A stretch of DNA of 64,000 nucleotides from Acorus gramineus (Eukaryota; Streptophyta; Magnoliopsida; Acorales; Acoraceae): the NCBI GenBank assembly GCA_030737835.1, contig CM060849.1:3410001-3474000 (forward strand). Reading direction: 5' to 3'. Below, piece after piece: positions 1,052-60,335 of the stretch. The translations under genes and the position numbers were made by a program. The notes under the pieces are model-generated. The model saw nothing but the letters and a program-made list of their open reading frames with translations, searched no databases and had not been told where the DNA came from. The first letter of the stretch is position 1; each line of letters starts with the position of its first letter.

Positions 1052-4000
1052 TGTCACGCCTCAGGGCGGTCATCCCCGAGATGTGGCAATATATATAATA
1101 TCAGCTATCAATACATGAGGTCAACAATAACTCTAACATACAACATATGAGGTGGCAAAGCAAAGATAAGTGATAGCTAACTAAAAAGCGGAAGAATAAA
1201 AATATCAATAAGTCTGAAAACCAAAACATTATTACAGACTCGAATACACAATCACTGTCCTGCTAGTCCAATAAAATACATCATGTGCAACACGGACGAT
1301 TAACAAATGCATGACTCTAGGACTGCTGACAGCCTCGCACTCGTCAACCGCCAGACGGAACGCTCCACGCACGCAAGACCACGCCACAGGGAAGCTCCAG
1401 CTCCACGCCCAACACCGCCTCTGTAAAAGAAACAGTACGCGAGGAGTGAGCTACAATCACAGTGAGTGGTTGGCAACAAAACACCATTACAACAATTTAA
1501 TGTTAAGGCAATTTCCTTTCAAGGGAAAACATGGGTGGAAACCTGATGGATAACAAGGTCACGCGGCGGCGCGACCAACCTCACCCTCACCCTCACTCCC
1601 GGAGGGAGACTCTTGGGACTCTTGGGGAGAGACCATACCGTTTGTCAAAGAGACGCAGAATTACTGGTCCACACAACACTACTGGATTATCTACATAGAG
1701 ATAACTGCCCACCGATGTCTCTCAACATCGATACATAACCGGACCCAACAACTATGGGAACGGACGAACAAACGAATGGGTCACGTAGCGACATGACTTC
1801 ACCTCACCCCTACCCCCACCTCTGAAGGGAAACTCCTGGGACACCCAGGGAGAAAACAAATAACACCTGGTGTTACTAGAGAACATAATACAACAAGTCC
1901 CTCTACTACGAGGTAGAGATGCCACTACGATACCTCAAAGCGTTAGGCACAACTTACCCGGAATATACTCTGACAGGTATAAGAGTCACGTAACCACGTG
2001 ACTCCCAACTCATCCTCACCCTAGCCCCCGGAGGGGTGACCCTAGGGACTTTTGGGATAAATCCATTTGCTCTACACCCTTCGTCATCCGGTAGCCCTCT
2101 CCCGGGTAGCCTCTACCTGGTATACTCTCATGATTAGTACATCTGCCAAACGCATCGGTAGTACCGACAGGTGGGAGCCCTCTGTCAGGACAGCTTCAAC
2201 GCTGGGCAGCTTCAACATGGATCCGATGAAGGGGAGAACGATTCCATGCTCACAATGCGAACCACATAGGTCGACTACTCTCGATAATCATATACCGATG
2301 ATATCGAATACGCTTGAACTCCCACACAGATGCGTCGCTCATACGCGAGGAGTTATCTCTGCTCTCGCGCAGAAATAAGCCAAGGGCATAAACCAACAGG
2401 TGGTTGATACACGCGCCTAGGACGGGTAGGCCTAGCTTAATGCCATAACCACCGGTTTAACAAAACCGATACAACAATGAATTCTCCTGAATTCTATTGA
2501 GTACATCACTCGGATGCAAGGTGACGATTACATCGCTTGCACTTTAACTAAGAAGGTACAACCCAATCGTGGGTCATACCCATGCCTATTACAGATAGGC
2601 CCAATTAGTCCAACATGCGCATAATTATCATAGGAGAATTCTATCGCAGAAGGAACATGATTCACATGCGCAATAACATATGATTAACTATAGGGGTTCT
2701 CTCTAACATGAATATATGGCATAAACAACACATCATGCAACATACATACAAGGCATGGCCTAACTACACATGCATATGAGGGCACATTAATCATACAAGC
2801 ACACAAAGTATAACTACACATGCATTAAGCACGATCTCGAGCACCAACAGGCGCATGTCAATAAACCCGAGCAAACCTAAGTCAAGTAGGAACCACATCT
2901 ACTTACTCAGTTCGCGCAAAGAGGGAGGGCGAGAGTGAGAGAAAGCCTCATCATCTCAGGAAGCTAGTCATAGCTTTGGCCCAACAAGATGGGCACAACA
3001 ACTATACCACGTCCTCAAGTCTTACGACCAGGGAATATTAAGTATGCACTCGGTTATTAACCCAGGCTTAATCATGCTAGAAATTACTAACATAGGGGGG
3101 GTAGTATTACAACCAAGACTACCTAAGGCATGCCATATACTATACATCCATATAAATACAAAGAGATACATGCCCATACAAGCAGGGCGCATGCAAACAT
3201 GATCATTCACATATGAATACAATACATAGGCAAGTACATGGTAGAAAAGGGGATTCTACGCAATATACGAGCTATACAAGCCTAGCATGCAAGATATCTA
3301 GCATATTTAGGGTGCAAAGAAGCCCCATGGATGCGCGATGCACGACTACGTGCATCGAGCGCTCCCCGAAGGGTTGGATCAAACCACTCACAGATACTTG
3401 GATTGTCGCGCATCCGGTCTACGAGATCTACAAGACACAACAACACAATATAAATAAACAACGTGACAAACACAACTCAAATAAATGAATCATAAACATG
3501 ATCCCTAGCGCAGGACAGTGCGCGGGGTGGGGCGGGCAGCACATGACGTACTCCCATGGCAACACAATCACATGAACAAAATACCATAACTTCTAAACCC
3601 TACAACGAATGGTGCTCAAATCAAACATGAAGCTACCTGACACAGATATAAGCCTACTTCAAGAAGACACCAACTCTTAATATTGCCTACAGCATGCATA
3701 AATATCTTATTGACCCAATCATGTAAAACTGGTGTATTTGCAGCCAATAGCCCTACTATTTGATCTCCACAGCACCAAATACACATCAAAACATTATGAA
3801 ATAAATCATACATGTTATCTGACATGTTGGGATCATAATATGTGCAGACATCATAATCTGATTTAGCCTCTACATGTGCAAAATAAAATATTTTCAAACA
3901 CTGGTCAATTCTCACGCAAATCTGGACAGTCCATGCAATTTAGGTAATAACTTACAACACATAATATTACCACACCAAATTTCATATATTGCATCTAGAC

Positions 4001-4554
4001 ACATGAAAGATCATATCACATGACGACACAATCCTGAGAATATGCCTCTAAATACTTGTTGCACAAGGATCTTAAGGAGACAAAAATCTGGCTTACTACA
4101 ACACAAAACCGCCACGATCCATGCATAAACACAAACACCTCATGTGTAGCAGCAATTACACGTAACAACACTCTCCCAACAACACCCACAAGTGCTACAA
4201 AACCAGAAGAGAAGAGGAAAAGACTTACCAAAAGAGGAGGAGGGAAAGGGGAAGGTGCAAGGGCTCTCGAACGCACCCACGACCACCTCGACCACCACCT
4301 CCTTTGCTTCTCTTCTTCATGGCTGGACCTAAGGGGAGGGGAAAATCAGGGGAAACCTGGGAACCATAAGAGGCTAGAGGAGGAGGAGAAGGAATAGACA
4401 ACAACTATGGCACACACCTTTATTTGATCTTCCTCTTCTTGCACCTCACCTTCCAAGCACTCCTTCATCTTCTTCTACCATCTTCTTCACCAAAAACACT
4501 CACACAAAGGGATGGACCAGATGGAAAGAGAGGGAGTTTGAGAGGGATAGAGAA
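1052..4554 (-). mobile_element. Solo LTR (second chromovirus subfamily), right-hand (3') portion
   Basis: On the minus strand the LTR ends at 1052 with ...GGCGTGACA (TGTCACGCC on the plus strand). It resembles the LTR copies at 29074 and 31230. It stops at 4554 because a plus-strand chromovirus complex is inserted there, and it resumes at 27894-28275. The two outer edges carry the identical 5-bp duplication GCTGA at 1047-1051 and 28276-28280, and no primer-binding site or polypurine tract adjoins either edge. The whole is therefore a solo LTR of about 3.9 kb. Confidence 0.85.
3392..3427 (-). other. 36-nt LTR micro-exon candidate, second subfamily
   Basis: On the minus strand this is preceded by a CTTGTAG acceptor and followed by a GTGAGT donor. 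Its length, 36 nt, matches the micro-exon in the first-subfamily LTRs. In the same phase it reads DLVDRMRDNPSI, compared with DLDGRSRDNPDT in the LTR at 57150. The downstream exon of this copy would give an immediate stop, so the copy is not intact. Confidence 0.4.
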
Positions 4555-4977
4555 TGTTATATATGTGTCACTTTTAGCCTTCTGGTAACCATTGGAGCAT
4601 TCTGGCAGTTTTTGAGTTTTTCGTTTTTCGATCGGAACCGCTAAAATTTTGGACTGTTAGCTATCATCCTGAGTTTGAGGACTCCAATTGAAAATCTAAC
4701 TGCATATTATGTGTCCTGGTGCCATTTCAAGCCACTCACGAAAATTTCATCGAATTCCGGTAACGTTTCAGAATTTCACAGTTCCGGGGCGTATCCGGGT
4801 TTTGACCGAGCGAGAAGTCATTGGGAAAGTTGACTTGGTCAAAGTGGGCCCATGACTTGGTCAACCCCTTTTATTTTTTTGTGTGGTTGGGTTGACCCAA
4901 GTCAAAGCTCACTTAAGCCTCACTAATCCTCTATTAAACCCTAATTAAACCTAGTTAGCCTAATCTAAGTGTGGGGT

Positions 4978-4986
4978 TATATATAA
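4978..4986 (+). promoter_or_regulatory. TATA box of the outer 5' LTR
   Basis: TATATATAA lies about 425 bp into the LTR, in a stretch that is the promoter position of plant LTRs. The C-rich segment containing CTATTCATCATC, where a transcript could start, follows about 25-35 bp downstream and is conserved in the sister LTRs. Confidence 0.55.
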
Positions 4987-5315
4987 GTGAGCTAAAATAT
5001 CTTTTCCTCCACTATTCATCATCTTCCCCAATTAAATTTCTCTCTCCCCCTCTCTCTTTTTCCACCATTTGAGATAGCTAGAGTGCTAGAAACCAAGAAC
5101 ACAAAGAAGGGAAAGGATAGGTATTGACCTGATCTATCTTCCCATGGTTTCTTTTTCAAGTTTCTTCATGTATGACCCCCTCTCATACCCTCTTTTCTCC
5201 TCTGATTTCAGCCCCTTTGAAGGCTGAAAGAGATCTAGGTGGTGGTGGTCCTTGAGGAGGTGTTTCGGTGCACGAAGAGCAACCGATCTTCCCCTTCCTT
5301 CCTTTCCTTCCTTGG

Positions 5316-6134
5316 GTAAGGTTCTTTCCTTCCTTTCCATGTTTAGATGCATGTTAGGAGGGTGTTTTTGGCTGTTGGTGGCGGTGGGTGGCGGTTGGTG
5401 GTGGTTGGTGGCCATTGGTGGCCGGTGAGAGGTGGTAGGGTGGCTCGGGCAGGATGGCAGGCTGTCTCGGGTAGGCTGGCAGCAGGTAGCGCAGGCAGGC
5501 AGGCTGGCGAGCAGGGCAGGCAGAGCAGCTGGCAGGGCACGCGCGCGTGTGCGCCAGCGTGCGCGCGGGAGTGCGCACGGGTGGAACAGGAGAGTGCGGG
5601 TGCTGCGCGCTGGGCGCCGTGCGGGGGCTTGCACACGGGGCGCTGCTCAGAGGCGCAGTGCGGGCTTGCGCGTAGGGGACCGCGTGCGGATGCTGCGCGT
5701 AGGGCGCCGTGCGGGGTGTGCGCGCGGAGCGCTGCGCAGAGGTGCAGGCGTGCTGTGCGCGCACGATGAGGCGAGCCGGTGGTGCACGCGGGGTGCGCGC
5801 GGGGCGAGGCGATGGGGAGCTGGGCGTGCGGGTGTGCGCGAGTGCTGCGCTGGGGCGTAGTGAGCGCGCGGTGCACCCAGGGGGGGTTCGACAGAGTGTC
5901 CGGGCGTGTGGGATGGGCTCGGCAGTCCATCTTGGCATGCGGGCCGGGGCTCGGTTGTGCGCCCGGAGCGGGTGGCCGTGCGTACGGCTGCCCAGGGGTT
6001 CAGGATTGAGTTGGGGTGCTCGGGCTCGCGTGCATACGGGCTGTATGTACGTTTGCCCGAGTGTTGTGTATTTTTAGTGTATTTTTGGTGTATTTGTCTA
6101 TTTTACTTACCGAGTTGATTACCCTGTCTTGCAG
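5316..6134 (+). other. Putative LTR leader intron containing a CpG-dense block
   Basis: A donor-like TTGG/GTAAGG at 5315/5316 and a pyrimidine-rich acceptor CCCTGTCTTGCAG ending at 6134 bound this 819-bp segment. Positions 5350-6020 are extremely rich in CpG, with G far above C on the LTR sense strand. Equivalent boundaries occur in the other LTRs while the block between them varies. Splicing is inferred from sequence only. Confidence 0.45.
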
Positions 6135-6170
6135 ATCTTGACAGACGGTCGTGCGACGACCCGGTTATTG
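6135..6170 (+). other. 36-nt LTR micro-exon (outer 5' LTR)
   Basis: This lies between acceptor TCTTGCAG and donor GTGAGC. In the phase set by the downstream exon it reads DLDRRSCDDPVI. The partner exon at 10538-10590 belongs to the same LTR but is now separated from it by the solo LTR at 6716-10026. Confidence 0.45.
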
Positions 6171-6979
6171 GTGAGCGGGACAACCCAACCGAGTTGGGAG
6201 GCACTATATGCACTTGGGCGTATACCGCCCTCCCCTGGGGCACCATAGTTAATATTAACTTGTTAATATGTAATCTGTGCAAGCATGATTAGTGAGTAGT
6301 ATGCATACTACCCTAGACTTTGTATGTTAGGGACTTGCACCCTTAGGATATGTGTAAGAGCCATGCATCCTGTCACCCTGTTATCATGCTAGGAAAGCCT
6401 CGACCTATGCATGCGTCCTACTAGTTTAATTTATTAAATTAAATGCGAGCATATGTCTATTAGTATGCCTTGGGGAATATTAAGGGGGCCTTGCGAGGTC
6501 AACATTGAGACCCGGGCTAGGGTACTCCGTGTTCCTTGTTTGGTTGTCGGGATGTCCTATATCGGGACCTCATGTTGCCCTCCCAAGGTTTCTTTTCCTC
6601 ATTATTATCTTATATATTCCCCGCATCTTGGTTATGCGCCCTGGAGGAATTCTGAAGAATTCATGACATTAGAGTTGTTGAGATGTGTTGTCGGCGGATC
6701 CGAGTGGATCATATGTGTTATACTTGTGTCACTTTTAGCCTGCGGGTAACCGTTGGAGCGTCCTGGCAGTTTTAAAAAATTTTTAGGGTTTTCGATCGGA
6801 ACCGCTTATTTTTGGACTGTTAGCTATCGTCCTGAGCTAGAGGACTCCGATTGAAAATCTAACTGTATATTTGGTGTCCTGGTGCCATTTTAGACCTCTC
6901 ACGAAAATTTCATCGATTTTCGGTAATGTTCCCAAAATTTCGCAGTTCCGGGGCGTATGTGGGTTTTTAAGTCGCACAC

Positions 6980-6987
6980 TATATAAA
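6980..6987 (+). promoter_or_regulatory. TATA box of the nested solo LTR
   Basis: TATATAAA followed by GG is the best TATA match among the LTRs here, about 265 bp from the LTR start. The CACTATTCATCATCC start-site region follows about 25 bp later. Confidence 0.6.
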
Positions 6988-8333
6988 GGTGGGATCAAAT
7001 TTCGAGTAGCACTATTCATCATCCCTAGCAACCTTCCCCTCTCTCCTATTCTCCATTTTTCTCACTTTTGAGCCCCCTAGACCCCTCAAAATCAAAAACC
7101 CAAAACCTAGGAAGTGTAGATCGGGTCCCGATCTACACCCCGGTGGTTTCAAATCCCTTTTCCGACAACTCTAGCCACTCCGTCCTCCCCTCTTTCTCCT
7201 CTGTTTTGGCCCGTTTCGAGGACCGTGGTAGATCGGGGCGTAGGAGGGCCGTTGAGAAGGGTTTCGGTGCGCGGAGAGCACCCGGACTTCGCTTCCTCCC
7301 CTTGGTAAGGTCCTTTTCTTCACTTTTCTTGCATAGATGTATGCTAGGAGTGTGGATCTGTGTATGAGGGGTGGTCGGCGGCTGTGGGAGGCTGTCGGGG
7401 GTGGTTGGGGGTGGTCGGAGGTGGTCGGCGGCCTGGGATGGGTGGTTGGAGGTGCTCGGCAGGCAGGGTCTGTTCCGGGCAGCAGGCAGCAGCGGCAGCA
7501 GCGCAGGCAGCGCGCGGGCTGGACGCGCGCGGGCGTGCGCGTGCGCGCGGCGTGCGCTCGGGGGCGCTGGTGGCCAGTTGAGCGCGCGTGCAGGGCGCGC
7601 TGTGCATGCTGGTCGTGCAAGGTCTGGTCGAGCGGCTGGAGCTGGGCGAGCTGGGCGCGAGGAGCTGGGCGGGCTGTGCGCGAGGTGCTGGGCGGCGGTG
7701 CTGGGGATGATGCCCGTGAGGGCAGTGTGTGCAGGGTAGGCTGGCAGGGCTAGCTCGGGTAGGATGGGAGTAGGTGCACCAGTTTGCTGGGCGCGCGAGC
7801 GCGTGCGCGCGGGTGCGCGCGCGGGCGTGCGCTCGGGGGGTGCAGTGGGTGCGAGCGGGTGGCACGCGGGGTGGTGCGCGCGGCTAGAGGGTGGTAGGTG
7901 CGTGCGGAGTGCGTGCGGATGGGGGGCTGGAGATGCGCGCGGGGTGCGCGCGGGGCGAGACGCTGCGCGCGGGGCGTGCGGGGTGCTCGCGGGCCAGCAT
8001 GGCGTGCGGGGTGTGCGCGGGCGGCTGCGCTGGGGCGCAGGGGGCGCGCGGTGCACACGGGAGGCTCGGCGGCGCGTCTCGGCAGCGGGCAGGGGCCCGG
8101 CGGTGCGCGGAGTGCGCAGGCCGAGGCGCGGCGGTGCGCCCGGGCGGTCGGGTGGCCATGCGGGTGGTTGCCGGCCGTGCGGGTGTTTGCCGGGATGCTC
8201 GGGCTAGCGTGCGTGCGGGTCGTATGCACGTTTGCCCGAGTGTTGGGAGTTTAGTTGTGGGTTTATGTAAGTTCTTGTGTATTTTGTAGTATTTGTGGAT
8301 TTTAACTCACCATATTGAATGTCTATCTTGCAG

Positions 8334-9680
8334 ATCTAGACGGGCGGTCGCGCGATGACCCAGATACTGGTGAGTGGGACAATCCAACCCAGTTGAGAGG
8401 CGTTATACGCACTTGGGCGTATACCGACCTCTCCTGGGGCGTCATGGACGGATATTGATCTGTTGTGATATGTATATCATGCTTATATGATTTAAATGTA
8501 GAATGCATGTTACCCTAGACTCTGCATGTTAGGGACTTGCACCCTTAGGATATGTGTATGAGCCATGCACCATGTCCCCTGTTTACATGCTAGGAAACCC
8601 GGCCTATGTATGCGTCCTACTAGTTTATTTATTAAATTAAATGCTAGTGTATGTTAAATCGCATGCCTTAGGATAATATTATAGGGAGGAGCCTTGCGAG
8701 GTCAACGCTGAGACCCGTGTTAGGGTACTCCGTGTTCCTTGTTTGGTTGTCGGGGTATCCTGTATCGGGAACTCACACTGCCCTCCCAAGGTTTCTAGTC
8801 CCAATAATATTATAAGTAATGTTGTATGATTGGTATGACTATTAGCATGAGTAGTGAATATTATAGGGGAGGGACCTTGCGAGGACAGCGGTGAGACCCG
8901 TGTTAGGGTACTCCGTGTTCCTTGTTTGGTTGTCGGGGTACCCTGTATCGGGAACTCACGCCGCCCTCCCGAGTTTCTTTCCCCCAGTGATATTCCAACA
9001 CTGCTTTTGATTGTACTATTTCCCCGCATCTTGGATATGCGCCCTGGAGGAACTCTGAAGAGTTCATGACATTTGAGTGGTAGAGATGTATTGTCGGCGG
9101 ATCCGAGTGGATCATATGCGTATGGATAGGCTGTTCTGTTCCCTGCGTTGGATCCGGTAGAGGCTACCCCCAGAGTTAGAAAGGCCGTCCTTCAGAGGAC
9201 CCACATCAGTAGGCACCTCCTGATTTGGTTTCGGACTGTGCTGAAGTTGTGGGTGGAGACCAAGCGGCCTACGGAGTGGAGGAGAGACTATCGGTGGACC
9301 AAGGGTGACCAACAGCCTAGTCAGTCCCAAAATCCTATGTCACCCGTGGGAGGGTGAGGGTGAGGGTGTAGTGGGTTGGCGATGAGCGACCTACTGGATT
9401 TTTGAATGGATGGTTATCAGTCCCAATAGCCTATGTCACCCATTGATGGGTGAGGGTGAGGGTGTGGTGGTTCGGCGAAGTACGAACCACTGGATTATGT
9501 TGTTATGTCTTTGAGGATGGATAAATAATGGAATTGTGGTAAATATAGTCTGTGATGCATGGGTTGTGCTGTTCACTGAGCGTGTGGCTCACCCCTCGCA
9601 TATGTTTTTCCCCAGTGGTCACTGAGCCTGAGCTAGAGCCGGAGCAGCAGTTGGAGCTTTCCGAGGGATTCCTTCAGTAG
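8334..9680 (+). CDS. Spliced small reading frame in the nested solo LTR (exons 8334-8369 and 9616-9680)
   Basis: The first exon (36 nt) follows acceptor TATCTTGCAG and ends at donor GTGAGT at 8370. The second (65 nt) follows acceptor TTTTTCCCCAG and ends with TAG at 9678. The junction codon is completed across the splice. The exons read DLDGRSRDDPDT, then VVTEPELEPEQQLELSEGFLQ in segments of up to 20 residues either side of the last residue. Compared with the LTR at 17981, five of six differences in the micro-exon are synonymous in this frame. Compared with the LTR at 57150, the second exon is longer by 12 nt, exactly four codons. No ATG is in frame in the presumed first exon (ending 7304), so the start of the protein is unknown. 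It could instead be a leader uORF or a captured gene fragment. Confidence 0.45.
8673..8985 (+). repeat. Internal tandem duplication in the nested LTR
   Basis: A segment of about 130 bp containing CCTTGCGAGG, GTACTCCGTGTTCCTTG and a GCCCTCCC end occurs at about 8673-8801 and again at 8856-8985, offset by 183 bp. The other LTRs have it once (for example 6485-6600 and 17730-17840). Confidence 0.8.
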
Positions 9681-10026
9681 CGGAGCAGCGCTACGTCCGC
9701 GAGTGCCAGAGGCTATCAGCATCCCTTTTCTTGGCTGTATGTATTTTATTTTCGTGCTTGGCACGCGTCTGTATATATTCAGTTGTTACTATGTATATTG
9801 GCTCTCACAGGACATATGATTGTGTATCGAGTCTGTAATGTGTTTTGGGTTACAGACTCAGTATTAGCTTCCGCTATATTGTGTATATATTATGTCAGCC
9901 CTGTTTGATCTGTGTTGTCATTTTTATCTGTGGTTTTAGAGTATATATGTTTGACCTCATGTGTAGGCTTCTGATATGATATATACACCTGCCGCGTCCC
10001 GGGGACGGCCGCCCTGGGGTGTGACA

Positions 10027-10930
10027 ATATGCGTATGGATAGGCTGTTCTGTCCCCTCGTTGGATCCGGTAGAGACTGCCCCAGCGTTAGAAAAGCCGTC
10101 CCGTGAGAGGGTTCCCATCAGTAGGCACCTCCTGATTTGGGACGGACTGTGTTGAATGTGGGAGTGGCCAAGCGGCTACGGAGTGGAGGAGAGACTATCG
10201 GTGGACCAAGGGTGACCAACAGCCTAGTCAGTCCCAATATCCTATGTCACCATATTGAGGGGTGAGGGTGAGGGTGTGGTGGGCCGGCGATGTGGCGACC
10301 CACTGGATTTGTGTAAGAATGATTATCAACCTGTTAAATCCCAACATCCTATGTCACCTATTGAGGGGTGAGGGTGAGGGTGTGGTGGTTCGACGATGTA
10401 GCGACCCACTGGATTGTCTTGTTCCTGCCAATTTGAGGCTTTTTTATTTGATTATTGTGGTTAATATGAATTGTGATGCATGGGCTGTGCTATTCACTGA
10501 GCGTGTGGCTCACCCCTCGCATAATTATTTTCTCCAGTGATTACTGAGGCGGACTTGAAGGAGGAGCTCCCCAAGCGACTGCACCAGTAGCGGAGTAGCG
10601 CCACGTCCCGCGAGTTTTAGAGGCCATCAGCATCCTTTTGATTGTATGTATATATATTCGTGCTTGGGCACCCAGTTTGGATTGTATTTGGATGTATGTG
10701 TGTATATTGGCTTCACAGACATTTGATTATGTATCGAGTCTGTAGTATGTTTTTGGATTACAGATTCAGTCTTTTAGCTTCCGCTATCTGTGTAATATCA
10801 TGTCAGACTTGCTTTCATCTGTGTTGTCATTTTAGTTGTTGTTTAGAGTATTTTATTGATCTCTTGTATAGACTGCTGATATCATGTATACACTTGCCGC
10901 GTCTCGGGGACGGCTGCCTGGGGCGTGACA
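10027..10930 (+). mobile_element. Outer chromovirus 5' LTR (type A), right part
   Basis: This continues the LTR interrupted at 6715, beginning with the duplicated ATATG and ending GGGGCGTGACA at 10930, immediately before a primer-binding site. It contains two GGGTGAGGGTGAGGGTG-like tracts and the LTR exon at 10538. Its last 310 bp match 27584-27893, the tail that closes the complex, better than they match the C-type LTR. Confidence 0.9.
10538..10590 (+). other. Second LTR exon (outer 5' LTR)
   Basis: This follows acceptor TTTTCTCCAG and reads VITEADLKEELPKRLHQ then TAG, with the first codon split across the splice. Against the copy at 63367-63419 there are nine base differences, seven of them synonymous in this frame. 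Confidence 0.45.
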
Positions 10931-10935
10931 AAAGT

Positions 10936-10947
10936 TGGTATCAAAGC
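10936..10947 (+). promoter_or_regulatory. Primer-binding site, initiator tRNA-Met type
   Basis: TGGTATCAAAGC lies five bases after the LTR end, where minus-strand synthesis would be primed. It differs by one base from the TGGTATCAGAGC present at 20980 and 26889. Confidence 0.85.
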
Positions 10948-11050
10948 CTGGTCCTGTCAGAGCCAATTGTCTTCTTTTTCTTAGAGATGAGTCCTAGGAT
11001 TTCTATATGAGTATTCTGATCCTAGTGTCTGGTTTTCTTAGGTTGCTGAT

Positions 11051-12196
11051 ATGCCTCCTCGCAGAGGACTGCGCGGACGTGGTCCCTCTCGACCTTTGGA
11101 GGTTTTCGGACCTACCAGAGGCGAGGATGCTACTGGAGAGTCCTCAGCCGTGAGGCCAGGATCGGCGCAGGAGCCTCCTGCCTGGGAGCGCGCGTTTGCG
11201 CGGATAGCAGATTTGGTGGAGACGCAGACCAGGCACTGGAGGCCCAGACCAGAGTGTTGGCAGATCAGGCAAGGGAGATTCAGGAGCTGCGGGCGGCCCG
11301 CGAGGCAGTTCCGCAGTCCCCTTGGTGGCAGATCCACCTGTGGTACCCAATGTACCCCCAGTCCCCGTGGTGGTTCCGGCGGTCAGAGTTCAGGATCCAC
11401 AGGAGAGGGAGGTGGGGCTAGAGGCTGCAGCGCGAGTGTAGCAGAGTGGCCTCGCAGCATTTCTGAAGCTCCACCCTCCCGAGTTCCAGGGCCAGACGGC
11501 GGATCCCCTTGCCCAGAGCGTTGGTTGATGGAGGTGGACACGATCTTCTCGACCATGCTTTGCACCGACCGCCAGCGAGTCTCCCTGGCCACTTTTATGC
11601 TGAAGGTAGCGCCGCCGACTAGTGGGCTACCCGATCAGTGGACATCCCCGAGGGTGTGGAGCAGCTTTCATGGGCGGGATTCTGGAGGTATTTCTTGGAG
11701 GAGTACTTCCCGTTCTCGACGCGCCAGATAGTGATGCAGGAGTTTGAGCAGCTGACGCAGGGCTCTATGTCTGTCGCTGACTACTCCACGCGCTTCATGA
11801 GGCTGTCCAGATTCGCCCCAGTTTTGGTGATGGACGAGGAGACGAGGTGCCGTCGTTTTGAGCTTGGTCTCAGCAGCGCCATTCGGGTGCATGTCACCTC
11901 CTAGGCATTCACGAGGTACTCGGACTTGGTGTCTCGGGCGAAGACAGTCGAGCGAGACCTCGGGATCCTCGTGAGGGTTGTGACCCCTTCGGCAGACCAG
12001 AGACCTCCCAGGAGCCAGGACCAGGGACAGCACAAGAAGAAGAGGCCCCGCTTTGATCGGTCAGCGGCTGCCTCTCCTCCAGCAGATGTGGTGCCAGTGC
12101 GAGGTCCAGCACCCATCGCGGCAGTGCCAGTCCAGTCCAGGCGACCAGAGACGCGGCGCTGTTACCACTGTCAGCGGATTGGGCATATCTTTATAA
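11051..12196 (+). pseudogene. gag: Chromovirus gag, copy 1, broken
   Basis: The ATG at 11051 opens MPPRRGLRGRGPSRP, the same start as copies 2 and 3. Gag would form the virus-like particle. A one-base deletion near 11232, another near 11316 and CAG-to-TAG stops near 11439 and at 11902 break the frame. The retrotransposon gag domain is still readable at 11638-11904 ([30 protein letters not shown]). The zinc knuckle begins CYHCQRIGH near 12160 but a one-base deletion loses its last cysteine. Copy 2, the better reference, keeps this knuckle. Confidence 0.9.
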
Positions 12197-15869: not shown

Positions 15870-17980
15870 TGTTATATATGTGTCACTTTTAGCCTTCTGG
15901 TAACCATTGGAGCATTCTGGCAGTTTTTGAGTTTTTTCGTTTTTCGATCGGAACCGCTAAAATTTTGGACTGTTAGCTATCATCCTGAGTTTGAGGACTC
16001 CGATTGAAAATCTAACTGCATATTATGTGTCCTGGTGCCATTTCAAGCCACTCACGAAAATTTCATCGAATTCCGGTAACGTTTCAGAATTTCACAGTTC
16101 CGGGGCGTATCCGGGTTTTGACCGAGCGAGAAGTCATTGGGAAAGTTGACTTGGTCAAAGTGGGCCCATGACTTGGTCAACCCCTTTTGTTTTTTTGTGT
16201 GGTTGGGTTGACCCAAGTCAAAAACCACTTAAGCTCACCTAACCCTCTCTTAAACCCTAATTAAACCTAGTTAGCCTAATCTAAGTGTGAGAGTTGATTT
16301 AAGTGAGCTAAAATATCTTTTCCCCCACTATTCATCATCTTCCCCAATTAAATTTCTCTCTCCCCCTCTCTCTTTTTCCACCATTTGAGATAGCTAGAGT
16401 GCTTGAAACCAAGAACACAAAGAAGAGAAAGGATAGGTATTGACCTGATCTATCTTCCTATGGTTCTTTTTCAAGTTTCCTCATGTATGACCCCCTCTCA
16501 TACCCTCTTTTCTCCTCCGATTTCAGCCCCTTTGAAGGCTGAAAGAGATCTAGGTGGTGGTGGTCCTTGAGGAGGTGTTTCGGTGCGCGAAGAGCAACCG
16601 ATCTTCCTTTCCTTCCTTTCCTTCCTTGGGTAAGGTTTCTTTCCTTCCTTTTCTTGCTTAGATGCATGTTCGGAGGGTGTTTTTGGCTGTTGGTGGCGGT
16701 GGGTGGCGGTTGGTGGTGGTTGGTGGCCATTGGTGGCCGGTGAGAGGTGGTAGGGTGGCTCGGGCAGGATGGTAGGCTGTGTCGGGTAGGCTGGCAGCAC
16801 AGGCAGCGCAGGCAGGCAGGCTGGCAAGCAGGGCAGGCAGAGCAGCTGGCAGGTCACGCGCGCGTGCGCGCGGGCGTGCGCTCGGGTGGAGCAAGAGGGT
16901 GCGGGTGCTGCGCGCTGGGCGCCGTGTGAGGGCGTGCGCGCGGAGCGCTGCGCAGAGGCGCAGTGCGGGCCATGCGCAGGGGACCGCGTGCGGATGCTGC
17001 GCGCAGGGCACCGTGCGGGGGCATGCGCGCGGAGCGCTACACAGAGGCGCAGGCGTGCTGTGCGCGCGCGATGAGCCGAGCCGGTGGTGCGCGCGGGGTG
17101 CGCGCGGGGATGCGATGGGGCGCTGGGCGTGCGGGTGTGCGCGCGAGTCGCCGCGCTGGGGCGCAGTGAGCGCGCGGTGCACCCAGGGGGTTTCGGCAGG
17201 GTGTCCGGGCGTGCAGGCTGGGCTCGGCAGTGCGTCTGGGCGCGCAGGCCGGGGCTCAGCTGTGCGCCCGGGGCGGGTGGCCGTGCGTACGGGCCGTATG
17301 TACGTTTGCCCGAGTGTTGTGTATTTTTAGTGTATTTTTGGTGTATTTGTGTATTTTACTCATCGAGTTGATTACCCTGTCTTGCAGATCTTGACGGACG
17401 GTCGCGCGACGACCCGGTTATTGGTGAGTGGGACAACCCAACCCAGTTGGGAGGCGCTATATGCACTTGGGCGTATACCGTCCTCCCCTGGGGCACCATA
17501 GTTAATATTAACTGATTAATATGTAATCTGTGCAAGCATGATTAGTGAGTAGTATGCATGCTACCCTAGACTTTGTATGTTAGGGACTTGCACCCTTAGG
17601 ATATGTGTAAGAGCCATGCATCCTGTCACCTTGTTATCATGCTAGGAAAGCCTCGACCTATGCATGTGTCCTATTAGTTTGATTTATTAAATTAAATGCG
17701 AGCATATGTCTATTAGTATGCCTTGGGGAATATTAAGGGGGCCTTGCGAGGTCAACATTGAGACCCGGGCTAGGGTACTCCGTGTTCCTTGTTTGGTTGT
17801 CGGGATGTCCTATATCGGGACCTCAGGTTGCCCTCCCAAGGTTTCTTTTCCTCATTATTATCTTATATATTCCCCACATTTGGTTATGCGCCCTGGAGGA
17901 ATTCTGAAGAATTCATGACATTAGAGTTGTTGAGATGTGTTGTCAGCGGATCCGAGTGGATCATATGCGTATGGATAGGT
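15870..17980 (+). mobile_element. Left two thirds of an A-type LTR, interrupted by a C-type LTR
   Basis: This is almost the same as 4555-6715 and serves as the 3' LTR of internal copy 1. It stops after CGTATGGATAGG with TAGGT at 17976-17980, where a complete C-type LTR begins. The expected remainder (starting about CTGTTCTGTTCCC) is not adjacent. TAGGT is the likely left target duplication of the C-type element. Confidence 0.85.
17388..17423 (+). other. 36-nt LTR micro-exon (A-type LTR, middle copy)
   Basis: This lies between CTGTCTTGCAG and GTGAGT and reads DLDGRSRDDPVI in the shared phase. A donor-like GTAAGG at 16630 starts the preceding CpG-rich segment. The matching second exon was not retained next to this partial LTR. 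Confidence 0.42.
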
Positions 17981-20974
17981 TGTTATATATGTGTCACTTT
18001 TAGCCTTATGGTAACCATTGGAGCATTCTGGTAGTTTTTTAGTTTTTTTTCTTTTTTCGATCGGAACCGCTAAAATTTTGGACTGTTAGCTATCGTCCTG
18101 TGTTTGAGGACTCTGATTGAAAATCTAACTGCATATTATGTGTCCTGGTGCCATTCTAAGCCACTCACGAAAATTTCATCGAATTCCGGTACGTTTCAGA
18201 ATTTTGCAGTTCTGGGGCGTATCCGGGTTTTGACCGAGCGAGAAGTCATTGGGAGAGTTGACTCGGTCAAAGTGGGCCCATGACTTGGTCAACCCTTTTT
18301 GTTTTTTTGTGTGGTTGGGTTGACCCAAGTCAAATCCCACTTAAAACCCACTTAAACCTAATTAATCAAGCCTTAACCCTAGTTAACCCTAATCTAATTG
18401 TGTTGACTTATTTAAGTGAGCAAGATATTTGCCCCCCACTATTCATCATCTTCTCCATTGGTTTTTCTCTCTCCCCCTCTCTCTTTTTCTTGATTTTAAG
18501 CTACCTAGAGTGCTTGAAACTCAAAACACAAAGAATAGAAAGGTTAGATCTCATCCCGATCTATCTACCGGTGGTCTCGGATTCGAGTTCCGGTGTGTTT
18601 AGCCCATTCTCACCCCCTCTTTTCTCCTCTGTTTTCAGCCCCTTTGAAGGCTGAAAGAGAGCTTGGTGGTGGAGGTCTTTGGGGAGGCGTTTCGGTGCAC
18701 GAAGAGCTCTCGGTTCCCTTCCTTTCCTTCCCTTTCCTTGGGTAAGCCTTCTTTCCTTCTTTTCCATGTTTAGATGCATGTTAGGAGGGTGGGTTTGAGT
18801 GTGGAGGGTGGTTGGTGGCTGTGGGTGGTGGTTGGGGGCGGTTGGAGGCCATTGGTGGCCGGTGGGGGGTGGTAGGGTGGCTCAGGAAGGGTGGTTGACT
18901 GCCTCGGGCGGGTTGGCAGCACAGGCAGCAGCACAGGCAGCAGGCAGAGCAGCAGACAGGGCGCGCGCGGGTGGAGCTGGAGGGCGTGCGGGGCACGTGT
19001 GCTGGGCGCGGGTGCGCTGGGCGCTGGGCGCTGGACGCTGGGCACTGGTCGTGGGCGATGGGGCGCTGCGCGCAGGGCGCCGTGCGGGAGCGTGATCGCG
19101 GAGCGCTGCGCAGAGGCGCAGGCATGCTGAGCGCGCGCGGTGAGGCGAGGCCGGTGGTGCGAGCGGGGTGCGCGCGGGGCGTGCGGTGTGCGCGCGGGCT
19201 GCTGCGCTGGGGCGCAGTGGGGGCGCGGTGCACCCGGGTGGCTTGGCAGTGTGTCCATGCGTGCGGGCAGGGGCCCGACGGTGCGCCTGGGTGCGCAGGC
19301 TGAGGCGCGGCGGTGCATCCGGGGGCGGGTGGCCGTGCGGATGGTTGCCGGGGGTGCGGGAGTGAGTCGGGGTGCTCGAGCTAGCGTGCGTACGGGCCGT
19401 ATGTACGTTTGCCCGAGTGTTGGGTATTTATTTGTGTATTTTGTGTATTTTTGTGGTATTTGTGTAATATACTCACCAAGTTAATTACCCTGTCTTGCAG
19501 ATCTTGACGGACGGTCGCGCGACGACCCGGTTACCGGTGAGTGGGACAACCCAACCCAGTTGGGAGGCGCTATATGCACTTGGGCGTATACCGTCCTCCC
19601 CTGGGGTAGCATAGTTAATATTAACTGATTAATATGTAATCTGTGCAAGCATGATTAGTGTGTAGAATGCATGCCACCCTAGACTTTGTATGTTAGGAAC
19701 TTGCACCCTTAGGATATGTGCAAGAGCCGTGCATCCTGTCACCTTGTTATCATGCTAGGAAAGCCTCGACCTATGCATGCGACCTATTAGTTTGATTTAT
19801 TTAATTAAATGCAAGCCTATGATATTGTTAGCATGCCTTAGGGAATATAAGGGGGCCTTGCGAGGTAAACATTGAGACCCGGGCTAGGGTACTCCGTGTT
19901 CCTTGTTTGGTTGGCGGGATGTCCTATATCGGGACCTCAGGTTGCCCTCCCAAGGTTTCTTTTCCCTATTATTATTTTATATGATTCCCCGCATCCTGGT
20001 TATGCGCGGTGGAGGAATTCTGAAGAATTCAAGACATTAGAGTTGTTGAGATGTGTTGTCGACAGATCCGAGTGGATCATATGCGCATGGATAGGCTGTT
20101 CTGTTCCCTTCGTTGGATCCGGGTAGAGACTGCCCCGGCGTTAGAAAGGCTGTCCCGTGCAGGGGCTCCCATCAGTAGGCACCTCCTGATTTGGGACGGA
20201 CTGTGCTGAATGTGGGGGTGGCCAAACGGCCTACGGAGTGGGGAGAGACTATCGGTGGACCAAGGGTGACCAACAGCCTAGTCAGTCTCAATATCCCATG
20301 TCACCATATTGAGGGGTGAGGGTGAGGGTGTGGTGGGCTGGCGATGTGGCGACCCACTGGATTGTGTAAGGATGATTATCAGCCTATTAAGTCCCAACAT
20401 CCTTTGTCACCTATTGAGGGGTGAGGGTGTGGTGGTTCGGCGATGTAACGAACTCCCGGATTTGTGTTGTTTATGCCATTTTGAGGCTAGTGACTTGATT
20501 AAATGTGGTTAATATAAACTGTGATGCATGGGTTGTGCTATTCACTGAGCGTGTGGCTCACCCCTCGCATAATATTTTTCTCCAGTGATTACCGAGGCGG
20601 ACTTGAAGGAGGAGCTTCTCGAGCGACTGCACCAGTAGCGGAGTAGCGCCACGTCCCTCGAGTTTTTGAGGCCATCAGCATCCTTTTTTATTGTATGTAT
20701 ATATTTCCGTGCTTGGGCACCTAGTTTGGATTGTATTTGGATATGTTGGCTCTCACAGGACATATGATTATGTATCGAGTCTGTAATGTGTTGTTGATTT
20801 ACAGATTCAGTCTTTTTAGCTTCCGCTATCTGTGTATACATCATGTCAGCCTCTTTGTGGTCTGTGTTGTCTTTTTAGCTGTTGTTTATGGTATGTTATT
20901 GATCTCCTGTATTGACTGCTGATATCATGTATACGCTTGCCGCGTCCCGGGGACGGCCGCCCTGGGGCGTGACA
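17981..20974 (+). mobile_element. Complete C-type LTR preceding internal copy 2
   Basis: A 2994-bp LTR from TGTTATATATGTGTCACTTT to GGGGCGTGACA, directly followed by a primer-binding site and gag. It is clearly more diverged from the A-type LTRs than those are from each other. Its right third nearly matches 26004-26883. Confidence 0.92.
19501..20638 (+). CDS. Spliced small reading frame in the C-type LTR (exons 19501-19536 and 20586-20638)
   Basis: Acceptor CCTGTCTTGCAG precedes the 36-nt exon and GTGAGT follows it. The second exon follows TTTTTCTCCAG and ends in TAG at 20636. The exons read DLDGRSRDDPVT and VITEADLKEELLERLHQ, the Val codon being split G/TG across the junction. The intervening 1049-bp segment holds the GGGTGAGGGTG tracts. 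A possible upstream donor is at 18742, but no in-frame ATG is visible in the exon before it. The genomic frame just upstream of the micro-exon contains TGA, so the frame needs splicing to be used. Confidence 0.5.
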
Positions 20975-20979
20975 AAAGT

Positions 20980-38284: not shown

Positions 38285-40334
38285 TGTTATATATGTGTCA
38301 CTTTTTAGCCTATTGGTCACATTTGGGTCATTTCTGGCCATTTTCCAATTTTTCTTTTTTCAATCGGAGCCGCTAAAATTTTAGTCTTTTAGCTATCTGC
38401 GTGAGTTTGAGTACTCCGATTGGAAATCTAACTGCATATTATGGGTCCTGGTACCATTTAGTACTACTCATAAAAATTTCATCGAATTCCAGTAACGTTT
38501 TAAAAATTATGCAGTTCCAAATCGTATCCGGGTTTCGGTCGTTACTGGTTTGTTTGGTGGAATAGTGTTGGGATATTTTGGTGGTTATGGTCACCTTGGG
38601 TAACCTCACCCCCCCCCTCTTGCTTAATGGTTAAGAAACCATTGGTTATTTTTGATGTGTGTGGGTGAGATTAACTTAAGTTCACCACCCCTTTTTCCCT
38701 TCTCATCAACCCCCCCCCCCCCCTTTAGGAAAAATTGCTCTCTCTCTCTCTTTCACCCCCTCTCACGCCTCCCTCTCCTCTCTTGATTGTGTGTGTGTGT
38801 TTTGAAAGAAAAGAAGGAGAAGAAAGAAGCACAAGAAGAGGAATAGTGAAGGAGAAGGGACACGCAAAGGTGTGTATGTGTGTTGTTGTAGTGGTTGTTG
38901 ATTCCCTTCTCTTAGCCTCCCTCTCATGCTCCCTTTTTGCCCCTGATTTTCAGCCAAGTAAGGCTGAGGAGGTGGTGGTGTTGGTGGTGGCGGTTGCGAT
39001 GGTTTTGGTGCGCCAAGAGCACCCGAATATCTCCCCTTTTCTTTCCCCTCCTTTGGTAAGCTCTCCTCCTCCCTTATCTTTGTTTTAATGGTTGTTAGGG
39101 CTGTTAGGGTGATCATGCATGCCATGTATGTGGGATAGGGTGTGTGTGAGGGCTGTGGAGGGGATGGGAGAGGTCTAGGCGCGCGCGCGGGGCCATCCGG
39201 GCGCGTGCGCGCGGGTGCTGGCGCGCGCAGTTGGACGCGCTAGCAGGCGCGCGAGCGTGCGTGCGAGGAGCTGGCGCGGGTGCGCAGTGCGCGCAGGCGC
39301 GCGCGAGCTTGCGCGCACGCGTGACAACGCGTTTGGACGCGCGGCAGTGCGCCAGGGGGTGCGGGGGCGCGTGCACGCATGCTTATGCGTGCGTACGCAT
39401 GCGGGGGCCATGCGTGTGGCTGCCCGAGGGTTCGGGTAGGTGTTGGGGCACTCGGACTTGTGTGCGTACGTGCGTACTCGCATGCGTGCGAGCCCGTATG
39501 CGTGCTTGTCCGAGTCTTTGGCATTTCTAGTAAATTCCATGTATATTTATGTAGTTATACTCACCATATTAAATGCCCTTGTCTTGCAGATCTTGGCGAA
39601 CGGTCACGCAACGACCCGGGTTGCGGTGAGTGGGTCGATCCAACCCAGTTGGGAGGTGTTCGATGCACGTAGACGTGCATTGCCCTCCCCTAGGGCATCA
39701 TAACTGCATATTAATCATATTTGCATGTATATGTTATTATTGGGCTTGCTAGGTTGCATCCATGCCATGTTAGACCTAACATGTTAGGGTTATACATCCT
39801 AGTATCATGCGTAGGGACCAATGCTTGTTCATGCATCATGTCCCATGTTAGGATAACATTTGATTCCTACATGCACCCCAACCTTGCCTAAGTATACCCT
39901 TAGCTATCTATGAAAAGCATAAGTGTAAGCATGCCTTAGCTATCTACAAGGGCGGTGTTGGGCATGGAGCTGGTGCTTCCCTGTGGTGTGGTCTTGCGTG
40001 TGTGGAAGCGTCCCGTCTAATGGTTGGCGAGTGCGAGGCTATTAGCAATCCTAGAGTCATTTATGTATTGATAAATCATGCGTGTTGCACTGGTTGTATT
40101 TTATTTGGACTAGACTTGGCTCTCACATGACAGTGATTGTGTATTCAAGTCTGTAATAATATTTTGGTTTACAGACTTAGTGATGTTTTATGCTTCCGCT
40201 TTTCAGTGAGCTATCAGTTATCATTGCTTTGTTAGCCTTGTCTGTTTTATTGGCGTCATTGTTGACCTCTTGTACTGATTGCTGATATTATATATATTGT
40301 CACGTCTCGGGGACGACCGCCCTGGGGTGTGACA
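38285..40334 (+). mobile_element. 3' LTR of the fourth chromovirus, internally deleted
   Basis: Starts TGTTATATATGTGTCAC after the polypurine tract and ends CTGGGGTGTGACA. It is 2050 bp, about 1 kb shorter than its relatives. The gap lies near 39950, where ATGCCTTAGCTATCTACAAG jumps to GGCGGTGTTGGGCATGG, removing the GGGTGAGGGTG tracts. Confidence 0.88.
39590..39625 (+). other. 36-nt LTR micro-exon (fourth element)
   Basis: This lies between acceptor TTGTCTTGCAG and donor GTGAGT and reads DLGERSRNDPGC in the shared phase. A donor-like TTTG/GTAAGC at about 39054 starts the preceding GC-rich segment (39170-39500). The exon length and both splice-like sites are conserved despite clear divergence of the surrounding LTR. 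Confidence 0.42.
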
Positions 40335-57149: not shown

Positions 57150-60100
57150 TGTTATATATGTGTCACTTTTAACCTTCTGGTAACCGTTGGGACATTCTGG
57201 CAGTTTTTCGATTTTTTATTTTTTTCGGTCGGAACCGCTAAAATTTCGGGCTGTTAGCTATCGCCTTGAGATTGAGGGCTCCGATTAAAAATCTAACTGC
57301 ATATTATGTGTCCTGGTGCCATTCCAAGCCGCTCACGAAAATTTCATCGAATTCCGGTACGTTTCAGAATTTCGCAGTTCCGAGGCGTATCCGGGTTTTG
57401 ACCGAGCGAGAAGTCATTGGGAGACTTTGACTTGGTCAATGTGAACCATTGACTTGGTCAAATGATTTTGGATTTTTGTGTGGTTGGGTTGACTAGGGTC
57501 AAACCACACTTAAGCCTCCCTAAGCTAGCTTAAACCCTAATTAACCTAGCTTAGCCTAATCTAAATGAGGTTTGACTTATTTAAAGGAAGCAAAAAGGTG
57601 CTCTTCACTATTCATTGTCTTCTCCAACTCTTTTTCTCTCTCCCCCTCTCTCTTTTTCAAGCTTTTGAGCCACCTAGGGTCGTCAAAGCTTAAAACCTAA
57701 ATCATAGAAAGGCTAGATCGGGTCCCGATCTACGCCCCGGTGTTCTCGGATTCGAATTCCGAGAAGTTTGGCCCCTTCATCCCCCCTCTTTTCTCCCCTG
57801 ATTTGGGCCATTTCGAGGGCCAAGGGAGATCCCGGCGTTGGAGGCCTTTGGGGAGAGGTTTCGGTGCGTGGAGAGCAATCGAGCATCCTTGCTTTCCCTT
57901 GGTAAGCCCTTTTTCCTTTCCTTTCTTGCTTAGATGCTTGTTAGGAGGGTGGATTTGAGTTTGGGTGGTGGTCGGCGGCTGTGGGTGGCTGTTGGTGGCC
58001 GGTGAGAGGAGTTTGGGTGGTCGGGCAGGGTGTTAGGCAGTCCCGGGCAGGGAGGTTGGCTGTCCCGGGTGGGCTGGCAGCGGGCGCAGAAGGCAGGCGC
58101 ACCAGATTGCGGGCGCACGACCGCGTGCGCGCGGGCGTGCGCTCGGGGGGTGCAGGGGGAGGCGTGCTGGGTAGGAGGTGCTCGGGCATCAGGCGGGCAG
58201 TGCCCGGGCGTGCAGGCGAGCGGTGCTCGGGCCACTCGGCGATGCGCGCAGGCAAGCAGCGCGGGCAGGCTGGCAGGCGCGCTGGGCGCGTGCTGCCAGG
58301 CGCGCTGGGCGCGTGTTGCACGGGCGTGCGCGTGGGCGCTGGGTGAGGGTCCCGGGTGCTGGGCGCTGGGCGCTGGGTCGCGGATGCTGGCTGTGTTGGG
58401 CGCTGGGCGCTGGGGCGCTGGGCGCTGAGCACGGTGCAGGAGCATGCGCGCGGGGCGTTGGGCAGAGGCGCGGTGGGGTGATGCGAGCGGTGTGCGCGCG
58501 GGCCAGCGCGGGGCGTGAGGTGTGCGCGCGGGTTACTGCGCTGGGGCGCAGTGGACGCGCGGTACACCCGGGGAGCTCGGCGGCGTGTCCAGGCGTGCGG
58601 GCAGGGGCTCGGCAGGGCGCCTGAGTGCGCGGGCTGAGGCACGACGGTGCATCCGGGGGCGGGTGGCCGTGCGGGTGGTTGCCGGGGGTGCGGGAGTGAG
58701 TCGGGGTGCTTGGGCTAACGTGCGTACGGGCCGTATGTACGTTTGGGTATTTTTAGAGTATTTTGTGTATTTTGTGGTATTTGTGGATTTTAACTCACCA
58801 TATGAAATACCTGTCTTGCAGATCTTGACGGACGGTCGCGCGACAACCCAGATACCGGTGAGTGGGACGATCCAACCCAGTAGGGAGGCGTTACATTCAC
58901 TTGGGCGTGTACCGTCCTCCCCTGGGGCACCATAGTAAATATTAACCTGTTTAATATGAAAACTATGTAAGCATGATAATCTGTAGTATGCATGCCACCC
59001 TAGATTTGTATGCTAGGGACTTATACCCTTAGGACCCGTATAAGAACCATGCACCCTGTTATCATGTTTCCATGCTAGGAAAGCCCCGACCAACGCATGT
59101 TCCTATTTAGTTTAATTTATTTAAATAAAATGCGAGCATGTGATATTAGCTTGTCTTAGTGAATATTATAGGGGAGGGGCCTCGCGAGGACAGCGGTGAG
59201 CCCCGGGGCTAGGGTACTCCGTGTTCCTTGTTTGGTTGTCGGGATGTCCTATATCGGGACCTCACGCTGCCCTCCCAAGGATTCTTTCCCCGTTAATATT
59301 CCAACCTCTTTATTATTATAATGCATGTTTCCCCGCATCCTGGTTATGCGCCCTGTTGGAATTCTGAAGAATTCAAGGCATTAGAGTTGTAGAGATGTAT
59401 GGTCGGCGGATCCGAGTGGATCATATGCGTATGGATAGGCTGTTCTGTTTCCCTTCGTTGGATCCGTGTAGAGACTGCCCCAGCGTTGGAAAGGCCGTCC
59501 CTTCCGAGGGCTCCCATCAGTAGGTGCCTCCCGATATTTGTGAAGGACTGTGCTGAAGTTGTGGGTGAAGACCAAGCGGCCTACGGAGTGGAGGAGAGAC
59601 TATCGGTGGACCAAGGGTGACCAACAGCCTAGTCAGTCCCAATATCCTATGTCACCCATAGAAGGGTGAGGGTGAGGGTGTGATGGGTCAGCAATGGGGT
59701 GACCGACCGGTTGTGGAATTGTGGTCTAAGGATGATTATTAGACTAGTATGTCCCAACATCCTATGTCACCCATTGAGGGTGAGGGTGAGGGTGTGGTGG
59801 TTCGGCGTTGTACGAACCACTGGATTTATGATGTTATGCCACTTTGAGGCTGGTTGTTGTTTAATTATGGTTAATATAGCTGTGATGCATGGGTTGTGCT
59901 GTTCACTGAGCGTGTGGCTCACCCCTCGCACAATTGTTTTCTCCAGTTGCCACTGAGCCGGATCAGCAGGAGGAGCCTTCCGAGGGATTCCTTCAGTAGC
60001 GGAGTAGCGCTACGTCCCGCGAGTGTTAGAGGCTATCAGCATCCCTTTTTGGCTGTATGTATTTTATTTCCGTGCTTGAGCACGCGTTTGTATATATTCA

Positions 60101-60335
60101 GTTGTATATGGTGTATATTGGCTCTCACAGGACAGATGATTGTGTATCGAGTCTGTAGTATGTTTTATTTACAGATTCAGTCTTTCGCTTCCGCATTTGG
60201 TGTATATATCATGTCAGCCTCTTTGTTGTCTGTGTGTCATTCTAGTTGCTTGTTTATGGTATATTATTGACCTCCTGTGTAGATTCTGATTTATATATAC
60301 ACTTGCCGCGTCTCGGGGACGCCCGGGGCGTGACA
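57150..60335 (+). mobile_element. Solo LTR of the first chromovirus subfamily
   Basis: 3186 bp from TGTTATATATGTGTCAC to CGGGGCGTGACA, flanked by perfect 5-bp duplications GAAAG (57145-57149 and 60336-60340). No internal sequence remains. It contains the CpG-dense block at about 57950-58730 and two GGGTGAGGGTGAGGGTG tracts at about 59667 and 59779. Confidence 0.95.
58822..59999 (+). CDS. Spliced small reading frame in a solo LTR (exons 58822-58857 and 59947-59999)
   Basis: Acceptor CTGTCTTGCAG, a 36-nt exon reading DLDGRSRDNPDT, donor GTGAGT at 58858. Then acceptor TTTTCTCCAG and a 53-nt exon reading VATEPDQQEEPSEGFLQ and TAG. The Val codon is split G/TT. An upstream donor TTG/GTAAGC at 57902 would remove the CpG-rich block. 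In the same phase the exon before it is open for over 40 codons but has no ATG. The frame ends SEGFLQ like the nested LTR at 6716. Function unknown; the product would be short and acidic. Confidence 0.48.

Follow-up and report, generated by a model that had tools for sequence, protein, structure and literature searches.

Introns within the long terminal repeats of an Acorus gramineus Ty3/gypsy-type retrotransposon and a probable spliced, nearly AUG-free leader for gag

The long terminal repeats (LTRs) of retrotransposons are an unusual place for introns because both new LTRs are templated by the 5' repeat and unique 5' region (R-U5) of the packaged RNA; if a spliced RNA is copied, the intron should, therefore, disappear from the two LTRs simultaneously. 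In a 64,000-nucleotide (nt) stretch of the Acorus gramineus genome (GCA_030737835.1, contig CM060849.1, positions 3,410,001 to 3,474,000; hereafter the window), several copies of a Ty3/gypsy-type LTR nevertheless carry short segments flanked by splice-site-like motifs, and a first-pass annotation proposed that these segments are joined to encode a conserved protein. What are these segments for? We consider it probable that the LTR exons are mainly a spliced, almost AUG-free 5' leader for gag rather than a new protein. In this layout, transcription would start ~300 bp or more into each long LTR, and the RNA would contain three LTR exons, the second of them 36 nt long, which are separated by introns 1 and 2; exon 3 would probably be followed by a third intron, which covers the primer binding site (PBS) and ends at an acceptor 9 nt ahead of the gag ATG.

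The annotated segments themselves are present. Segments of 36 nt between TTG[CT]AG and GTGAG were found at 8334-8369, 6135-6170, 17388-17423, 19501-19536, 39590-39625, 58822-58857 and, on the minus strand, 3427-3392, and downstream segments ending with TAG in the proposed frame at 9616-9680 (65 nt) and at 10538-10590, 20586-20638, 59947-59999 and, on the minus strand, 63419-63367 (53 nt each). The first exon, which the annotation had left to be searched for upstream, was found at about 7012-7304, but without a usable start codon or frame conservation. This block follows a TATA-like sequence and ends with CTTG/GTAAG or similar. The transcript would start ~32 nt downstream of the TATA-like box TATATAAAG.

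Copying back of an RNA without intron 1 should leave LTRs in which CTTG is joined to ATCT. In the 398.6 Mb host genome, the predicted exon 1-exon 2 junction has 19 exact matches, while a control with the reversed pattern has none. Six of the 19 were fetched with ~1 kb each, and all six are LTRs in which CTCCCCTTG is joined to ATCT with intron 1 exactly missing. These LTRs fall into four divergent groups with 72-86% identity between groups, except that the 3' part of one copy (L056), in which the exon-2 donor is mutated to AT, is 95% identical to L053 and L054. The latter two are the LTRs of a single element, C2, and are 97.4% and 98.7% identical in the two stretches compared; pieces of C2 next to these stretches contain the start of the LTR and the remainder of intron 2 as well as exon 3, the PBS, the gag ATG, a degraded pol end, a polypurine tract (PPT) and the second intron-1-less LTR. 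Altogether, three pairs ~5.1 kb apart are present among the 19 matches, of which the C2 pair alone was checked, and pairs of this kind should arise when the two LTRs of an element are copied from the same spliced 5' R-U5. Because an intron with GTAAG and TAG/CAG ends is recognizable by eye at the corresponding place in distantly related copies (E and S, Table 1), we take the loss of intron 1 as the derived state. With its GT..AG ends and its exact removal, intron 1 has the characteristics of a spliceosomal intron. Thus, the junction-bearing LTRs in the genome show that intron 1 is precisely spliced out, and that reverse transcription of RNA processed in this way has given rise to elements whose LTRs lack intron 1. 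The exon-2 acceptor is the one named in the first-pass annotation, and it is used with a donor that the annotation had not named. Since intron-1-less LTRs occur in four diverged groups, intron 1 is dispensable for replication.

Intron 1 may have been lost independently in these groups, or once in an old event that recombination then spread. Mosaic LTRs that combine differing 5' and 3' halves are frequent here: in many of 20 copies compared with LTR B (L009-L028), the 5' half is 74-83% and the 3' half 87-97% identical, and the border lies near intron 1. Intron 1 itself (7305-8333 and counterparts) is GC-rich and fast-changing, and consists of arrayed short repeats that are rich in G or in GCGC. 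The C2 element (C2:7692637 to about 7700000; L053, L054 and L059-L062), with an internal region of ~3 kb by coordinates, is inserted in the hairpin region of another LTR copy.

If the exons form a leader for gag, they would be expected to differ from the introns in their content of start codons. ATG counts were compared with the expectation from dinucleotide shuffling in the 30 of 36 LTR copies that could be parsed. ATG is strongly depleted in the exons, i.e. in exon 1 (2 vs 24.3 expected in the 18 copies with a located TATA-like box; 5 vs 32.1 for the last 200 nt in 30 copies), exon 2 (4 vs 11.8; 30 copies) and exon 3 up to GTATGT (2 vs 20.1; 27 copies), for a sum over the three exons of 8 vs 56. 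By contrast, there is no depletion in intron 1 (328 vs 348.5; 30 copies) or intron 2 (1122 vs 999.7; 30 copies), and the LTR end has 210 vs 262.5 (27 copies). In U3, the unique 3' region that should be untranscribed, the depletion is mild. Downstream of the LTR, all ten leaders for which the gag start could be located share the order PBS, two or three ATGs, CTGAT (TTGAT in one of the ten) and then the acceptor TTTCTTAG, which is invariably 9 nt ahead of the gag ATG. These motifs suggest a third intron from the GTATGT after exon 3, a candidate weak donor at 9737 in LTR B, to the gag acceptor; its span would cover the PBS and the leader ATGs. If this intron is real, the gag AUG would be the first AUG, and the PBS would be gone from the translated RNA.

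Splice donors were assessed by ranking all GT sites with a typed donor matrix in LTRs B and F. The exon-2 donor ranks first in both, and the exon-1 donor ranks third in LTR B and second in LTR F. The acceptors are preceded by CTCAC, which we take to be a branch-point-like motif.

Based on these data, we suggest a model in which the LTR promoter makes one long RNA from which splicing would strip AUG-rich, GC-rich and structured sequence, making the gag AUG the first. Because the gag AUG would come first in the spliced leader, the spliced RNA would be the translated RNA that gives rise to gag-pol. Molecules in which intron 2 and the PBS are retained would serve as the genome for reverse transcription, and intron 2 probably carries signals for this RNA, including a hairpin that, similar to those of retroviral leaders, closely follows the donor. 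The model is supported by the depletion of AUG in exons and not in introns, the conserved splice sites and the covarying hairpin; the transcript start, the splicing of introns 2 and 3 and the role of the hairpin are parts that we infer.

The first-pass annotation described the DNA between the segments as varying freely. Intron 2 does not conform to this description: its GT..AG ends are conserved, parts of it surpass the exons in conservation, and a covarying hairpin begins 18 nt into it. Near 9266-9316, ~50 columns are 100% identical save 0-2 gap columns in four of four pairs compared (counterparts in A, D and F), possibly representing another RNA signal. The hairpin, which is retained only in RNA that keeps intron 2, was analyzed in 12 distinct sequences that were hand-picked from 34 to span the LTR types. 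In this set, 91.6% of the cells are paired compared to 37-58% when the alignment is slid by 1-3 columns, and the six double-change cells were equalled in four of 500 shuffles. In retroviral 5' leaders, the major splice donor lies beside packaging hairpins. The arrangement here is similar in that a hairpin comes immediately after a donor and is, therefore, retained in unspliced RNA only; however, the Acorus donor is within the LTR, and a role of the hairpin in packaging or dimerisation is a guess by analogy. All six intron-1-less LTRs that were fetched keep the first ~560 nt of intron 2, hairpin included, and the B-type exon 2-exon 3 junction has no match in the host genome. Both facts agree with a signal in intron 2 that is required in genomes but do not prove it, and they also fit an intron 2 that is never spliced. 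Across LTR types, intron 2 also contains a ~96 bp tandem unit with GGGTGAGGGTGAGGGTGT (9321-9496, 10228-10415 and counterparts), and the second subfamily has similar GTGAGGGTGAGG stretches.

Could the exons nevertheless encode protein? The pairwise counts behind the original proposal are correct, with five of six changes synonymous between exon 2 of LTRs D and B (19501-19536 vs 8334-8369) and seven of nine between exon 3 of LTR A and the minus-strand copy at 63419 (10538-10590 vs 63367-63419), but these pairs are favourable ones: LTR F against the same minus-strand copy gives 2 synonymous to 10, and D against E in exon 2 gives 1 to 6. A 12-nt difference was held to be the sole length change; however, the 53 parsed exon-2 copies include one each of 35, 37 and 39 nt, the 44 parsed exon-3 copies two of 59 nt and one of 64 nt, and one of 12 unparsed matches has, by eye, an 11-nt deletion. 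The frame is not shared by the second subfamily, represented by the minus-strand copy that ends at 1052, as a TAG is formed at the exon 2-exon 3 junction (ATCT + AGGC). The copy at 38285 (E) has no clear exon-3 acceptor. At this position, seven of eight other copies of the same type share a different sequence, and the eighth differs again; this copy, therefore, looks like a deletion.

For a broader test, the changes on internal branches of LTR-stretch trees were set against the expectation for identical nucleotide changes placed at random codon positions. For exon 3 in the proposed frame, the 44 copies have 20 synonymous and 17 other changes (11.0 synonymous expected, p=0.0018), and the 38 copies outside the window 19 and 15 (9.6 expected, p=0.0006). 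The six window copies alone have 6 and 8 (3.6 expected, p=0.13). On terminal branches, the excess is not significant (p=0.20 for all copies, 0.06 for those outside the window), which agrees with the behaviour expected of dead copies. When 2022 windows in the region of exons 2 and 3 were scanned, all of the ten smallest p-values belonged to plus-strand windows that lie on or overlap exon 3 in the proposed frame. Another scan, with 2692 windows, has its two smallest p-values at the position of exon 3 (considered irrespective of frame) and its third-best elsewhere in intron 2 (p=0.0003). Because recombination can cause one change to be counted repeatedly, each codon state was also counted once; with this count, exon 3 has 12 to 15, a synonymous fraction of 0.44 compared to a mean of 0.25, and ranks 57 of 2028. 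Codon families also recur (e.g. Leu TTG/CTG/CTA, Arg CGA/AGA). Thus, of the proposed conserved spliced protein, the codon-phase signal of exon 3 stands as real but moderate, while constraint on the other exons and a start codon do not. Exon 2 has no significant coding constraint (8 synonymous, 11 not, 6.5 expected, p=0.31), and exon 1 is not coding in the joined frame (9-13 synonymous vs 17-19 expected in four overlapping windows). Among 29 exon-1 copies, none has an ATG in the last 330 nt from which a frame continues into exon 2 without a stop, the exon length is off frame in 11, and, by eye, an in-frame ATG near the start site hits a stop in L015, L022 and L028. Finally, none of 1493 candidates from a 5.8-billion-protein database matched at E<=1 in a search with low power for ~50 amino acids.

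How are these observations best explained? A short peptide that is encoded by exon 3, perhaps together with exon 2, and matters to the element would account for the synonymous excess, its concentration at exon 3 in both scans and the lack of a significant excess in terminal branches. Such a peptide could be made from a conserved upstream open reading frame with a non-AUG start in the spliced leader, or form the C-terminus of a protein whose RNA is spliced from an exon in the internal region, e.g. in gag, onto the 3' LTR; some retroviral accessory genes end at or in the 3' LTR. Given the missing start codon, the non-coding behaviour of exon 1, the lack of significant constraint in exon 2, the loss of the frame in the second subfamily and the lower rank of exon 3 when codon states are counted once, we regard this peptide as unlikely. 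In a combined version, the LTR would be a small transcription unit used twice, as a spliced, AUG-free 5' leader and as exons for a conserved acidic peptide tail (xTExDLKEELPERLHQ type), the latter use depending on the 3' LTR or on a non-AUG start. In this case, selection for coding would act on exon 3 in addition to leader constraint, an arrangement that we find rather improbable.

At the other extreme, the conserved blocks would be regulatory DNA or RNA structure of the LTR, only intron 1 would ever be spliced, and the exon-3 acceptor and TAG frame would have no role. The conservation of intron 2, which is as strong as that of the exons, its retained start in six of six intron-1-less LTRs and the missing B-type exon 2-exon 3 junction agree with this. 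But the exon-3 acceptor with its CTCAC is retained in the second subfamily although the exon sequence is not, exon 3 is AUG-poor next to an AUG-rich intron 2, and the exon-2 donor is the top-scoring GT site in both LTRs ranked; we consider this explanation very unlikely.

The spliced leader for gag, which we favor, has its own difficulties. A plain leader does not predict codon phase in exon 3, and this signal, for which there is no known translation start, is the main open point against it. The ATG figures are descriptive because the LTR copies are related and the counts are non-independent; U3 is also below expectation (28 vs 47.6; 12 copies), and the depletion may, therefore, partly be compositional, while the low count in exon 3 is favored by setting the end of this exon at a motif that contains ATG. 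The GC content of intron 1 (70-71%) is, to our knowledge, unlike that of ordinary plant introns, and the candidate intron-3 donor is weak (4.2 bits in LTR B, 6.0 bits in LTR A). For intron 2, the lack of B-type exon 2-exon 3 junctions in the genome counts on the same side, as does the hairpin in two respects: its three pairs with a double change are unremarkable (reached by 124 of 500 shuffles), and further pair types are not raised (481 of 500 shuffles).

The elements in the window have the hallmarks of LTR retrotransposons, including TG..CA LTR ends, a PBS, a PPT and a target duplication. LTR B is flanked by the 5-bp duplication ATATG (6711-6715 and 10027-10031), a PPT-like AAGGGGGGGAGAA lies upstream of LTR C, and the PBS TGGTATCA after LTR A is presumably of the initiator-tRNA type. 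In Pfam searches, Retrotrans_gag, RVP_2 and RVT_1 are above cut-off in one piece and SH3_Tf2-1 in another, in which rve is below cut-off (27.6 of 32.6); the Chromo match of the integrase is sub-threshold (E=5.8e-4, 20.2 bits vs a cut-off of 25.1). By the gag, protease, reverse transcriptase and integrase matches, these data support a Ty3/gypsy type with a sub-threshold chromodomain; the clade name Tekay/Del is the label of the first-pass annotation, and the Pfam basis reaches to Ty3/gypsy. In addition to LTRs A-F, the window contains minus-strand LTR copies. In a distant LTR relative on the minus strand (33370-33245), the same acceptor and donor flank a 39-nt exon 2 of different sequence.

Table 1. 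Coordinates of LTR copies and of known or predicted leader features in the window
Feature	Position	Strand	Remarks
TATA-like box TATATAAAG	6980..6988	+	LTR B
Exon 1 (5' untranslated)	7012..7304	+	ATG-free; ends CTTG/GTAAGG; predicted start, 3' junction from intron-1-less LTRs
Intron 1	7305..8333	+	GC-rich (71%), 16 ATG
CTCAC, candidate branch point of intron 1	8306..8310	+	
Exon 2, 36 nt	8334..8369	+	flanked by TTGCAG and GTGAGT
Intron 2	8370..9615	+	40 ATG; splicing predicted
Hairpin, 20 pairs, covarying	8388..8438	+	near the 5' end of intron 2
CTCAC, candidate branch point of intron 2	9588..9592	+	present in second subfamily too
Exon 3	9616..9736	+	ATG-free up to GTATGT at 9737; contains the proposed frame 9616-9680 ending TAG
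Exon 3 of LTR A	10538..10643	+	GTATGT at 10644
Candidate intron 3	10644..11041	+	GTATGT .. CTGAT .. TTTTCTTAG; predicted
Primer binding site TGGTATCA	10937..10944	+	directly after LTR A
gag start ATG (MPPRRG..)	11051..11053	+	
LTR A, 5' part	4555..6715	+	intron 1 from 5316, exon 2 6135-6170; resumes 10027-10931
LTR B	6716..10026	+	solo LTR, 3311 bp, TG..CA ends, nested in LTR A
LTR C	from 15870		in the window's set of nested long LTRs
LTR D	17981..20976	+	exon 2 19501-19536, exon 3 from 20586
LTR E	38285-40334		distant copy
LTR F	57150..60334	+	exon 1 to 57901, exon 2 58822-58857, exon 3 59947-60054
Second-subfamily LTR (S)	1054..4554	-	splice sites at matching places, frame not in common

Spliced LTR elements are known in plants. 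Introns inside plant LTRs or intron-less LTR variants were not found described in a limited literature search that left most subscription papers outside. In BARE1, a Ty1/copia element of barley, spliced and packaged RNAs are reported to form separate pools; BARE1 is similar in that one of its RNAs is spliced and translated and a different one replicated (PMC3735527). By contrast, the Acorus introns are inside the LTR ahead of gag, and RNA spliced at intron 1 has been copied into new elements. Ogre, a Ty3/gypsy element, shares partly spliced plant transcripts with the system described here, but its intron, as described, is internal, between gag-pro and rt-rh-int, and not in the LTR (PMC6317226). 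For sunflower LTR elements, short-GAG isoforms have been described that arise by splicing of internal sequence plus early termination; splicing shapes gag expression there as well, although the introns are internal, and the study detected no Tekay element among those expressed (PMC7730604). The maize centromeric retrotransposon CRM1 is another case of RNA processing of a plant retrotransposon, but what is reported there are back-spliced (circular) RNAs and not LTR introns (PMC7010299).

The presence of intron-1-less beside intron-bearing LTRs represents a natural experiment, which shows that RNA without intron 1 can still be packaged and reverse transcribed. Retention of intron 2 in the six copies looked at is a hint to the location of needed RNA signals. 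The introns may also bear on the length of these LTRs of ~3 kb. With these LTRs, the division of RNA between translation and replication in plant Ty3/gypsy elements becomes directly testable.
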